DNA from: Sphingomonas sp. KRR8
GTDB taxonomy: Bacteria > Pseudomonadota > Alphaproteobacteria > Sphingomonadales > Sphingomonadaceae
NCBI RefSeq assembly: GCF_023559245.1
Contig: NZ_CP097462.1
Location: forward strand, 930,001 to 994,000
Direction of reading: 5' to 3'
Length of the DNA stretch: 64,000 nt
The position numbers and the translations under genes were made by a program. How positions within the stretch are numbered: the first letter of the stretch is position 1; the number at the start of each line of letters is the position of its first letter. Below the pieces are notes generated by a model. It saw only the letters and a program-made list of their open reading frames with translations. It was not told the origin of the DNA and made no database searches. Positions 8,969-41,506 of the stretch are shown here, one piece after another.

Positions 8969-9044
8969 GGACGCATAGCTCAGTTGGTAGAGCAGCTGAC
9001 TCTTAATCAGCGGGTCCTAGGTTCGAGCCCTAGTGCGTCCACCA
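8969..9044 (+). tRNA. tRNA-Lys (anticodon CTT), CCA encoded
   Basis: Full cloverleaf: acceptor stem GGACGCA pairs with TGCGTCC, D arm AGCTCAGTTGGTAGAGC, anticodon stem GCTGA/TCAGC around loop CTCTTAA (anticodon CTT), T arm with GGTTCGAGCCC, discriminator A and encoded CCA. Its 3' half, from the anticodon loop to the bases after CCA, is repeated at 18285-18334 and 41336-41384, making it the attachment target of two tandem elements. The intact copy is on the left, so the gene stays functional after integration. Confidence 0.97.
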
Positions 9045-9048
9045 TTTT
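8999..9048 (+). repeat. attL: 3' half of tRNA-Lys, attachment core copy 1
   Basis: Fifty bases from the anticodon loop of tRNA-Lys through CCA and four Ts are identical to 18285-18334 and match the first 49 bases of the copy at 41336. Direct repeats of a tRNA 3' end are the usual core of P4-type tyrosine-integrase elements. This copy lies inside the functional tRNA and marks the left end of element A. Confidence 0.92.
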
Positions 9049-9114
9049 TTCTAAGTACAACAGACAATTAGAGGCTGGCCTTTGGCGCTGCACCAGTTTC
9101 GCGCGGCGGGCTCT

Positions 9115-9128
9115 AGCGTATTTCTAGC
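9115..9128. repeat. Candidate integrase arm site, left end of element A
   Basis: AGCGTATTTCTAGC occurs here, 66 bases inside the left attachment core, and again at 18152-18165, 119 bases inside the right core next to the integrase start. Its TTTCTAGC end is the complement of GCTAGAAA and resembles GCTAGAAT at 18142 and 18240. Placement beside both cores suggests arm-type integrase binding sites. This is inference from repetition only. Confidence 0.45.
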
Positions 9129-9140
9129 CAACTGGGCTTC

Positions 9141-9719
9141 TTAAGCGTCGCCGCATTCAGAGGCTGCCCGAAGCAACCTCCAAGCACCTCTGTACTTCTC
9201 AAGCCAACCCGCGCCGTGACCTGCAAGGTCAAGATGTGCGTAGCTGGGTAACAGTCGTCGCATTTCCCCGTCCTTGTGCGGTCGCCCGCCTCGACCGGGG
9301 CGAGCTAGCCAAGTGCGATGAGCGAGAGCCAGCGTGTCGGCCACCACGTTGCTCGGGATGACATAGGTGGTCGGGGCATCGTCCGCTTCGTTGCCGAAAT
9401 CCACGAAGCAGTAGAACAGCGATTCGCCTCTTATCTGCTCGTGCTTGGCTTTCATGTGCCAACCACCATCGGAACCGAGATTGCGGCGCGTCTTCACCTG
9501 AAGAGCGCAAGCGCGTTCGCCGACATCGTCGGTGACTACAATGTCAGCCAAGGGAACGCCTACGGGCGCGAGCGCAGCTATAAATCCGCGTCGAAGCAGC
9601 TGCGACATTACGTAGTGCTCACCAGCAGCGCCAAGAAGCGAGGACGGGGACACTTTATCCGGTTCGTCCCTAACCGACCAGACGCAACGTAGGCTGGCGG
9701 CCCTCGACCGGGAGCGCAA
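9141..9719 (-). CDS. Hypothetical protein with PD-(D/E)XK-like nuclease signature
   Basis: 192-aa soluble protein. The motif order Gly-x-x-Gly-Glu (E34) in a helix ending LLRRGF, then Asp-59 in ADIVV, then Gln74-Val-Lys76 in ALQVKTRR is that of small PD-(D/E)XK-fold proteins. The C-terminal half is unrecognised. The longest frame starts at 9719 and overlaps the methyltransferase gene by 50 bases; a GTG at 9653 just after the methyltransferase stop would avoid this and keeps all the motifs. It is the last gene before attL and probably cotranscribed with the methyltransferase, so it may belong to the defence module. Nuclease activity is inferred. Confidence 0.6.
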   Translation of the reverse strand: MRSRSRAASLRCVWSVRDEPDKVSPSSLLGAAGEHYVMSQLLRRGFIAALAPVGVPLADIVVTDDVGERACALQVKTRRNLGSDGGWHMKAKHEQIRGESLFYCFVDFGNEADDAPTTYVIPSNVVADTLALAHRTWLARPGRGGRPHKDGEMRRLLPSYAHLDLAGHGAGWLEKYRGAWRLLRAASECGDA

Positions 9720-38917: not shown

Positions 38918-39061
38918 CGATAGAACCAGGAGTGGGTCAAACGCGGGCACTCACTCTCAGCAACGTAGCAGACAAGCAGTGATTGGCCAGACACTTGCCC
39001 AACGTTTCGATGCCCTCTCTCCATCGCCGCAGAGGCGGGAGAGTTCTTGCGGTCTCTGCCC

Positions 39062-39901
39062 TCAGCCACGCCGCTCAGAAAGCTGAGCAGCTTGCACCCA
39101 CCACCCGTTGATGCGTGCTGCAGCATCGCCATGCTGACTTGCGGCATTATTCGCGTAGGTTGCAATCTGCTGTTCGAGCACGCGCACGTCCGCCATGTCG
39201 GCTGCGGGTGCGAGTTTGCCATAGTCGGTGAGGGCCCGGGACGCAGCCTGCAGCTCTGCTTTCACTTGGGGCCAGTTGCCTTGCGCCGCAGCGATCGCTG
39301 CAAGCGAGAGATTCTGCCGAGCCTTGACCAGCGGCATTCGCGTCGTGGAGCTCTCCAACACGATGCTTTGCTGCAACGTCTTAAGGCTGGCATCGGCTGC
39401 GTGGACATCGCCGCGTCCGAGGGCGTCTCTCGCGGCGGTCAACTGCTTGCGAGCAACACTGGTGTCGAGCAGGATCTCGCTGTAGCCGCCGGCGACCGCC
39501 CGAACCGCGACCGGCGCCGTCCGACTCTTCGTCGCGTCTTCCTTCCTGGCGTCCTCCAAAGCCCCGATGAAGCTTTCTTGTGAAACTTCGGAAAAGATTG
39601 GGACAAGTGGGACACCGCCGGTTCGGACGAGTTCATCAAGGGCCGAAACAATGTTAATCCTCGCGGTTGCGACGTCTTTTCTGGCCAAGGCTGTTCGCGC
39701 CATCTGCGTCGCCGCCAAGACGCGAACGGCTGCGTTTGATCGCTCCACCGCGCGATCGTGGATTGGCTGGGCAGCCTGTCGTGGAGCAGGTGTGGGACGC
39801 TCGGCTGCCTCGGCCTTGTCGCTCTTTGCACAAGACACAATGGACAGACTTCCCAGGCTCAGCGCGACCGCCGCGCAGAGAGTATCAAAGACACGTGGCA
39901 T
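39062..39901 (-). CDS. YfdX-family periplasmic protein
   Basis: 279-aa exported helical protein. The N-terminal signal ends near IVSCAKSD and could be a lipobox. The body matches YfdX: ALARKDVATARINIVSALDEL, VPIFSEVSQES, an Ala/Asp-rich helix bundle, GNWPQVKAELQAASRAL. YfdX proteins are linked to acid or antibiotic stress. The ATG at 39901 has a perfect GGAGG site; the open frame to 39961 is not needed. Single gene. Confidence 0.8.
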   Translation of the reverse strand: MPRVFDTLCAAVALSLGSLSIVSCAKSDKAEAAERPTPAPRQAAQPIHDRAVERSNAAVRVLAATQMARTALARKDVATARINIVSALDELVRTGGVPLVPIFSEVSQESFIGALEDARKEDATKSRTAPVAVRAVAGGYSEILLDTSVARKQLTAARDALGRGDVHAADASLKTLQQSIVLESSTTRMPLVKARQNLSLAAIAAAQGNWPQVKAELQAASRALTDYGKLAPAADMADVRVLEQQIATYANNAASQHGDAAARINGWWVQAAQLSERRG

Positions 39902-40124
39902 CGTATCCTCCGATTGCATGCTGATGGTAATGGGCACGGGCGCAGCCGCTCCGCACCCCAAATAACCGGAAGGCTCGGATGCCGTTCCGGGCTTTGACCA
40001 ACGTCAATTTTTTCCCGGAGTCGACTCTCCCCGCGCGGTGAGCGAGGAAGGTCACGAACGCTCGTCTTGGATGGGTTCGGCAGTCACTCGGGAAACCAGT
40101 GCCCGACGGAACAGTTGTCAGCAG

Positions 40125-40889
40125 ATGGAACTACTGGTCCTTACGGCGCTCTGCGTACTCGTCCTGAGCGCCATTCACCTCACCGCTCCGATGATGCGCT
40201 TCCTGGAGGGGACGCCGCGCAGCATCTGGCTTTCGATCGCCGGTGGCGTCTCGGTCGCCTACGTTTTCGTTCACTTCCTTCCGGAGCTTGCGAGCGGGCA
40301 AAAGGACATCGCGGCTGAACTGCGTTCAGTCGATTTCGCCGAGCGCCATGTCTATCTGATCGCGCTGGCGGGGCTCCTCACCTTCTATGGTCTCGACCGC
40401 CTCGCCAAAGCCGATCGCTCCCGCCATGCCGGTCGACCGGTATCCGATGGTCGCGGCGCCAAGCGTCGCGACGCGCCTCCTGCCAGCTCGGGCGTGTTCT
40501 GGATCCACATGGCGAGCTTCGGGGTCTACAACGCCATTATTGGCTACCTGCTGCTGCACCGCGAGAAGATGACGCTGGGCAGCCTATTGTTTTTCGCCGT
40601 CGCAATGGCCCTGCATTTCTTGGTGACGGATTACGGATTGAACGAAGATCACAAGTCCCTCTTTCGGTCCCTTGGCCGCTGGATTCTGGCGGGCACGCTT
40701 GCACTTGGCTGGCTGATCGGCGCGCTGACGGAAGTGGGAAAGCCCGTCATTGCCGCACTGACTGCCTTTTTGGGTGGTGGCGTGGTCCTGAACGTACTCA
40801 AAGAGGAAGTGCCAAGCGAACAGCAGAGCCGCTTCTGGGCCTTCGCTGCCGGGGCGTCGGCGTATTCCCTCCTTTTGCTGACGCTCTGA
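40125..40889 (+). CDS. ZIP-like multi-pass membrane protein
   Basis: About 254 aa with seven or eight membrane helices. SIWLSIAGGVSVAYVFVHFLPEL near the start and GGGVVLNVLKEEVPSE near the end resemble the paired helices of ZIP-type transporters, but the canonical metal-binding histidines are only partly visible (HFLPEL, HMASFGVYNA). The frame opens at a GTG at 40038; the ATG at 40125 begins right at the first helix and is preferred. Last gene of element B before the third attachment core. Confidence 0.6.
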   Translation: MELLVLTALCVLVLSAIHLTAPMMRFLEGTPRSIWLSIAGGVSVAYVFVHFLPELASGQKDIAAELRSVDFAERHVYLIALAGLLTFYGLDRLAKADRSRHAGRPVSDGRGAKRRDAPPASSGVFWIHMASFGVYNAIIGYLLLHREKMTLGSLLFFAVAMALHFLVTDYGLNEDHKSLFRSLGRWILAGTLALGWLIGALTEVGKPVIAALTAFLGGGVVLNVLKEEVPSEQQSRFWAFAAGASAYSLLLLTL

Positions 40890-41506
40890 AGGCCCGAATT
40901 CTGAACCAAAACTTCTCTTAGCAGGCATCGAGCTTATGTCCGCAATGGTCTGTAAGTGGACACATGCTGCTTAGCTGATCCAATGTCTGCTTACTGGCAT
41001 CGCAGCTGCAGCCCTAAGCGTCCGAGAAGGGCGCTAAGCCGACGTACTGACGGCCTGAACGAACGGCGGCTTTGGCTTGGCCACGCCCAATAGCGGTTCT
41101 TCCGCTTCCCACCAAAGCAAACTCGATCCAACGCTAAAGAGAGGTTCGTTTATGGCATCGTCTTCTTTCGCTTGGACCGCAGACGTTCGGCGCTTAGCTG
41201 CTCTTCGAGAGAGGAGCCGTGTGAGCTAAATTGAGTCATCCTTTAGCGTCCGTCTTTGTAGATTAACGGCGATGGAAATTTAACCGGCAAAACACGAATG
41301 CAGCTAAGTGGTTGGTTTTGTTTGTAGAACAACGAACTCTTAATCAGCGGGTCCTAGGTTCGAGCCCTAGTGCGTCCACCATTTCTCCTTCAGCTCCTCA
41401 CAATTCGCGCGGAACGGTCTGCCTGACTGGTCTCGTAGATGGGCTGCGAACGCCTTGAAGGAGCTCACCCCAACATCGGGTCCTTTTTGTTCGCTGCTAT
41501 CGACCC
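40890..41506. other. Non-coding gap containing attachment core 3
   Basis: About 617 bases with no supportable gene. It holds several GTCCGC/GCAGAC-like pieces of the dispersed intergenic repeat (near 40938-41060 and 41175) and the third tRNA-Lys core at 41336-41384, after which the chromosome resumes. Confidence 0.4.
41336..41384 (+). repeat. Attachment core copy 3 (right end of element B)
   Basis: Forty-nine bases identical to the 3' half of tRNA-Lys at 8999-9047, diverging after the third T past CCA. No 5' tRNA half, so not a gene. It shares one further upstream A with core 2, consistent with recombination at this sequence. Confidence 0.9.

Follow-up and report, generated by a model that had tools for sequence, protein, structure and literature searches.

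A tRNA-Lys (CTT) integration hotspot in Sphingomonas sp. KRR8 with an apparently mobile element and a probably stranded remnant of a different one

The DNA considered here is a 64-kb window (the whole stretch that was analysed) of Sphingomonas sp. KRR8 (NZ_CP097462.1, positions 930,001-994,000, forward strand; genome of 2.87 Mb), in which a tRNA-Lys (CTT) gene is followed by an array of three segments, here called elements A and B and segment C. The tRNA gene (8969-9044, +), identified by ARAGORN and by Rfam RF00005 at 72.1 bits, is the apparent integration target, and its 3′ half makes up core 1 (8999-9048, +), the left boundary of A. Exact repeats of this core recur at the A/B boundary (core 2, 18285-18334, +) and at the right boundary of B (core 3, 41336-41384, +), giving three perfect 49-bp matches on the plus strand (8999-9047, 18285-18333, and 41336-41384); cores 1 and 2 are identical over 50 bp (to 9048 and 18334, respectively), and core 3 has 49. 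An earlier note on this DNA, made from its letters alone, had reported three cores in the same orientation, and they proved to be exact and beyond chance, with a mean expectation of 0.00 in 100 dinucleotide shuffles and these three sites only in a whole-genome search with a 29-base core piece at up to three mismatches. A fourth core near 62 kb was considered and rejected, with just two 11-base matches beyond cores 1-3 (56318 and 6398, minus strand). The 3′ end of the tRNA stays whole after the insertion of A, and the G+C content is 0.591 in A, 0.612 in B, and 0.644 in C, with flanks at 0.666 and 0.649.

Element A comprises the 9.2 kb between cores 1 and 2 and carries an integrase, an AlpA-like regulator (a label given in this analysis), and restriction-modification cargo. 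The tyrosine integrase (16818-18128, -) lies 157 bp from core 2 and has the domains of the phage family with an arm-binding domain (PF13356, 2.1e-11; PF00589, 3.1e-08). Close to it, the AlpA-like helix-turn-helix protein (16162-16437, -; PF12728; phrog_66, excisionase and regulator) is a candidate excision factor. No relaxase family was found among 10 open reading frames (ORFs) of A scanned with Pfam and 9 scanned with PHROGs, several ORFs matching no family, and packaging or capsid-hijacking genes, as carried by phage satellites, were not seen among the 9 ORFs in PHROGs, where some A proteins match nothing. Element A looks intact.

Element B (18335-41335) occupies 23 kb between cores 2 and 3. 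Its genes encode an AraC regulator, the heme protein HTHP, hydrolases, an RNB nuclease, an OprB porin, and a pyrroloquinoline quinone (PQQ) dehydrogenase, together with cytochrome c, a caa3-type oxidase, CtaG, a Crp regulator, and YfdX-like and Zip-like proteins; the respiratory cargo (PQQ methanol/ethanol-type dehydrogenase, cytochrome c, COX2, and COX1) lies at 30751-36249 (+). As the earlier note had claimed, the integrase is confined to the segment between cores 1 and 2, and the eight PF00589 matches of this genome all lie outside the stretch from core 2 to core 3. Moreover, tblastn with 31 integrases and that of genome G034 against 18335-64000 gave no convincing integrase remnant in B or C (best E 0.14), and VirB4-like, coupling, and relaxase proteins of relatives reached E values of 0.096 or worse, the best of them outside B. 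Recombination and transfer genes are absent from B among the ORFs scanned and in these tblastn searches with relatives' proteins. Other genomes of the genus, among them G018 (1.58 Mb) and G017 (2.22 Mb), carry related dehydrogenase/oxidase clusters, with an identity of about 71-73% over the long pieces. A relative carrying the B genes at this place with no core, which the earlier note had named as evidence against its proposal, was not seen among the 34 relatives fetched, in which B proteins had weak paralogues only (36 and 25% identity).

A tyrosine integrase that has an arm-binding domain binds to short arm sites, which lie within the two ends of its element. Putative sites of this kind were seen in A as GCTAGAA, once at the left end (9122-9128, -) and three times at the right end (18142-18246; at 18142, 18159, and 18240), and in B as CGCTAAA (TTTAGCG), twice at the left end (18353-18376; at 18353 and 18370) and twice at the right end (41132-41248; at 41132 and 41242). 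Counting both strands, GCTAGAA occurs five times in the window, four of them no more than 250 bp inside the ends of A and the fifth at 18680, 346 bp into B, and CGCTAAA occurs four times, all no more than 250 bp inside the ends of B. Visual inspection first revealed the motifs, and they were then assessed with a score maximised over all 7-mers; the top common end 7-mer was GCTAGAA for A (19.3) and CGCTAAA for B (23.7), and none of 2,980 random window pairs reached either value. Furthermore, GCTAGAA is the top common end motif in the A-like loci L128, L130, and L135, which supports A independently. From sequence alone, these private motifs may be the integrase arm sites of A and B, respectively, and B keeps attL- and attR-like ends, with cores 2 and 3 and putative CGCTAAA sites at both. 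Short identical repeats can in principle also come from duplication of a tRNA end with no integration at all, but the end motifs, the constant spacing between integrase and core, and the differing contents in relatives make such an origin hardly credible here.

The same motifs bear on whether the integrase of A could mobilise B in cis, by recombining core 1 with core 3 and excising A and B together. The cores are identical, and the available part of one review describes a Streptococcus agalactiae composite with very different att sites that was excised whole, a point that also counts against our preferred reading, while calling cis-mobilisation of distantly related elements likely rare, with one exception described (PMC7563491); in the portion available of another report, this kind of movement is proposed for tandem Dehalococcoides islands that lack integration modules (PMC3146451). 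However, GCTAGAA is absent left of core 3, the A-left and B-right ends have no marked common motif (score 4.7, reached by 2,711 of 2,980 random pairs), and in the S. agalactiae case, as far as that text goes, both partners had integrases (PMC7563491), none being found in B, so that we regard joint excision as unlikely. The earlier note had offered B as either a decayed island or a segment mobilised by A; the former is favoured, and the latter is unsupported because the A motif is missing left of core 3 and the B motif is different.

A contig scan with the A integrase yielded 10 loci in Sphingomonas, Brevundimonas, Sphingobium, and metagenome-assembled genomes (MAGs). In five of them (L128, L129, L130, L133, and L135) tRNA-Lys-type cores flank the integrase on both sides, with about 8-10 kb between them; a single core is present in L131 and in L134, that of L134 being part of a different-looking tRNA, and L132, L136, and L137 have none. 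The five elements with two cores, from Sphingomonas, Brevundimonas, and MAGs, resemble A in their integrase, AlpA-like gene, and a conserved protein of 252 amino acids (aa; 13514-14272, - in A). In the eight loci compared (window excluded, L036 included), the AlpA-like gene was found in seven, at just 35-41% in L036 and L133, and the 252-aa protein in six. Cargo at the far end varies among these loci, and 8 of 10 cargo ORFs from five loci match no family. An EcoRI-family restriction enzyme with a methyltransferase is present in the A-like element of Sphingomonas dokdonensis (L133:17455-19345), in contrast to the Dam-type methyltransferase and restriction enzyme pair of A. These relatives also speak to a joint arrival of A and B as one composite element: acquisition of whole composites is known from the available part of the streptococcal review (PMC7563491), and a single genome represents the array here, but A and B each have their own matched ends and all five two-core relatives stand between cores with no B, which leaves joint arrival distinctly improbable.

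Across the genus, the core (up to three mismatches) was present in 67 of 71 genomes, and 13 of the 71, KRR8 included, carried at least two cores in the same orientation on a single contig, with spacings of about 1.6 to 73 kb; in G070 neither copy starts in the tRNA gene. A PF00589 search covering 14 multi-copy genomes placed an integrase domain within the array in seven of the 13 (G000, G005, G006, G020, G026 in its inner part, G034, and G070) and found none there in the other six (G023, G025, G028, G037, G045, and G059), with G059 having an N-terminal match to the A integrase. Segments lacking an integrase-domain match are therefore common at this tRNA, and G026 resembles the window in having three cores and an integrase in the inner segment only. 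In flanks fetched from 34 relatives, with the tRNA itself seen in 33 (not G070), the region after tRNA-Lys varies. Serial integration at one tRNA, as the earlier note proposed, is thus supported by the variable post-tRNA region, the 13 multi-core genomes, and the separately matched ends of A and B, and the case for two distinct site-specific integrations is strong, their order being presumed. As a separate observation, in G002 the RodA-to-MreB block is inverted downstream of tRNA-Lys (L055:1949-11504), which suggests an inversion at the tRNA.

The origin of B may be read in part from G034, whose tRNA-Lys cores lie 73 kb apart and enclose an integrase, a VirB4-like protein, and coupling proteins (PF00589, PF03135, and PF02534; L045); no relaxase was seen among nine ORFs scanned in this island, a minority of its ORFs. 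The sequence left of core 3 aligned to the right end of the G034 island with a local score of 38, the best of 200 shuffles reaching 34. A sequence common to B, G034, G217, and G191, ATGCAGCTAAGT (41298-41309, +), lies 36-37 bp before the core; a 10-base piece of it was found in 5 of the 25 rows for cores outside the tRNA, with one core appearing twice, and a pattern built from the B and G034 right ends matched 3 of 298 family genomes, KRR8 included. The G217 stretch contains a TrwC relaxase. Leftward for about 118 kb in G217 and 135 kb in G191, the core pattern and the protein panel revealed no partner core and no integrase, and hence neither is established as a whole element. In G034 the integrase adjoins the tRNA, and therefore the lost integrase of B may have sat at the left end of B.

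Considering these data, we propose that the tRNA-Lys (CTT) gene is a hotspot with two independent insertions, in which A is mobile, B is a stranded leftover from another element, and C is separate DNA, a reading to which we give a probability of roughly 0.7. The A integrase would recombine the core in the tRNA 3′ half, reading GCTAGAA arm sites at both ends of A, and A should excise alone through core 1 and core 2. Element B would derive from another element, probably a conjugative one, that shared this core but relied on CGCTAAA arm sites of its own; with the integrase and the genes for transfer lost, the two ends and the respiratory cargo would remain, and B would now be stranded. We read B as such a remnant and not as a passenger of A because of its private end motifs and its G034-like right end. 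The likeness of that end to an ICE-like island may point to derivation by deletion from an integrative and conjugative element (ICE) or an integrative and mobilizable element (IME), with no gene remnant found in B. Segment C, from core 3 to the conserved flank, would be DNA distinct from both.

Several observations weigh against this reading. Under a stricter control with shuffled ends, 7 of 1,000 (A) and 6 of 1,000 (B) reached the observed motif scores. The top end motif is not GCTAGAA in the A-like loci L129 and L133, and a single CGCTAAA stands at the integrase end of L128. A strict pattern of the B left end matched only KRR8 among 397 family genomes. The G034 ends are without CGCTAAA and the left ends of B and G034 are unlike (score 25; shuffles up to 40), so only about 35 bp next to core 3 are alike in the two. 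In addition, the RNB nuclease gene of B (24431-25816) is 90% identical to a G018 gene at 2.704 Mb and is matched in at least 21 genomes of the genus, and B is therefore a mixture, not purely foreign.

Arm motifs were also compared among 28 integrase loci, two pairs of which, L131/L177 and L132/L178, apparently represent one element each. The core was present in 15 of the 28, each time 157-174 bp from the integrase, and between the two lay GCTAGAA in six and CTTACG, a motif of only six bases, in nine; these classes were defined after the motifs had been seen, and the assignment of L129 and L180 rests on one motif copy each. In a tree of the loci with a core, which leaves out the 13 core-less rows, the six GCTAGAA integrases form one clade (support 100/98) with one change. 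It is conceivable, at somewhat less than even odds, that a single switch of arm motif (GCTAGAA versus CTTACG) took place within the A integrase family with the core target mostly constant, and that this arm code keeps same-core elements mutually immobile; the arm code, not the core, would therefore decide which neighbours can be moved. Counting against this proposal and also against our main reading, GCTAGAA occurs upstream of the distant, core-less integrases L078 (one copy) and L189 (two copies), which are 49-51% identical and weaken a strict arm-motif rule.

Beyond core 3, segment C (41385-62049, about 20.7 kb) is extra DNA with no terminal core, followed by the right flank (62050-64000). 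In the closest relative, G018 (RodA 96% identical), the counterpart of 62050 begins 32 bp past the tRNA, and the match to the right flank continues, gapped, to the end of the compared stretch. The earlier note had expected an empty site to join the tRNA to the sequence after 41384, and that boundary fails because the G018 tRNA joins the counterpart of 62050; judged mainly from this one close relative, the inserted region is apparently about 53 kb (9045-62049), not 32 kb. In 11 of 34 genomes (G004, G006, G009, G010, G012, G014, G015, G018, G021, G023, and G034), genes from 66926 or 71270 on follow the tRNA or the distal core. An alignment of the right side of core 3 with the G018 post-tRNA sequence was tried and discarded, its best stretch having 11 columns.

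Segment C carries genes for TonB receptors, an M56/BlaR-like protein, proteorhodopsin, a BCD-family dioxygenase, amidases, a peptidase, and a moaA fragment, the last name being a reading made in this analysis. That C is a third and oldest tandem element with its distal core deleted, an explanation compatible with the others, is possible though it falls short of our favoured view: C is missing between tRNA and flank in G018, and a truncated moaA copy with one gap (61291-61907), 83% identical to the gene at 1.618 Mb in the same genome, sits at its right edge, as a deletion scar might leave. Nevertheless, the ends of C have no marked common motif (8.2, reached by 531 of 2,980 random pairs), its G+C content is close to that of the flanks, and its gene counterparts are scattered in G018, where the block 41500-46861 matches at 2.72 Mb (77%) and other genes near 1.50 and 1.32 Mb. 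In the post-tRNA stretches fetched, C proteins had two weak paralogues only, at 33% (G020) and 35% (G034). For the origin of C, a deleted fourth core and relocation are both conceivable.

The block 41500-46861 is also present at other places in G006, G004, G023, G033, G008, G022, and G019. A single ancestral place for it was considered and set aside, as the 20-60 kb fetched there from these seven genomes held no neighbours from 1.59-1.645 Mb of the KRR8 genome. The neighbours of this block in G018 have counterparts about 50 bp apart in KRR8 (1605331-1605382). A bacteriorhodopsin-family gene (PF01036) is followed by a beta-carotene 15,15'-dioxygenase-family gene (PF15461) at 47162-49086.

Regarding the remaining genes of A, a Dam-type adenine methyltransferase (9670-10416, -; PF05869, 1.5e-10; PADLOC orphan MTase) and a type II restriction enzyme-like protein (10391-11524, +; PADLOC REase_II, 2.2e-78), the latter with 454 homologues at E≤0.001, are encoded by divergent, overlapping genes. 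The protein at 11624-12202 (-) matches NCBIfam NF047386, 'T4SS effector SepA family' (8.6e-73), which we use as a label only, and that at 14689-16014 (-) is an AAA_25 RepA/helicase-like protein (PF13481, 5.3e-25; phrog_906). A 126-aa conserved protein, present in A-like loci, was placed at 12509-12889 (-) from the lengths of its homologues, mostly 126-129 aa and covering 57% of an over-long ORF to 13171; its structural model (predicted local distance difference test, pLDDT, 78.4) is weaker than that of the 252-aa protein, which is confident and mostly helical (pLDDT 88.7). The 252-aa protein has 31 proteins among the matches listed, itself included. Its model gave 379 Foldseek matches in the PDB at E≤10 and none at E≤0.001; the top matches, all to long-helix proteins, are no better than chance (best E 0.23), and no fold identity was taken from them.

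Tandem arrays that include integrase-less remnants have been described before, and here the boundary signals are unusually clear. Composite islands are described as common in streptococci, the most decayed elements always being farthest from the target gene, in the accessible text of the review cited above (PMC7563491). The tandem accretion of ICEs, IMEs, and cis-mobilizable elements (CIMEs) set out there is alike in having an integrase-bearing element by the target, an integrase-less remnant outward, and repeated cores, and arrays at tRNA-Lys CTT, the same tRNA type, are cited for S. agalactiae (PMC7563491). In contrast to what that portion reports of streptococcal arrays, no relaxase was found in A, the A and B end motifs are unrelated, and an extra core-less segment is present. 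In two respects B matches a CIME: putative attachment ends are kept on both sides, and the scans turned up neither recombination genes nor genes for transfer. In Dehalococcoides, 15 ssrA islands without integration modules are reported in the part of the article available (PMC3146451); they are similar in their tandem arrangement at one RNA gene, some lacking integration modules, but differ in target (ssrA), repeat (20 bp), and cargo, with rdhA genes there and a PQQ dehydrogenase and caa3-type oxidase here. Literature naming this locus was not found by titles and abstract openings, a partial coverage that makes for weak evidence.

In brief, the KRR8 array is a clear-cut example of tandem insertion at a tRNA whose segments can be distinguished by end motifs, beyond gene content alone, and the sequence predicts that A can move and B probably cannot. 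It also cautions against taking the outermost repeat of the core as the point where the chromosome resumes, the insertion here extending about 20.7 kb further. With 15 integrases in two arm-motif classes, the specificity of the arm-binding domain becomes directly testable, and the arm code, if true, would allow mobile and stranded segments of a tandem array to be told apart by a rule based on sequence.

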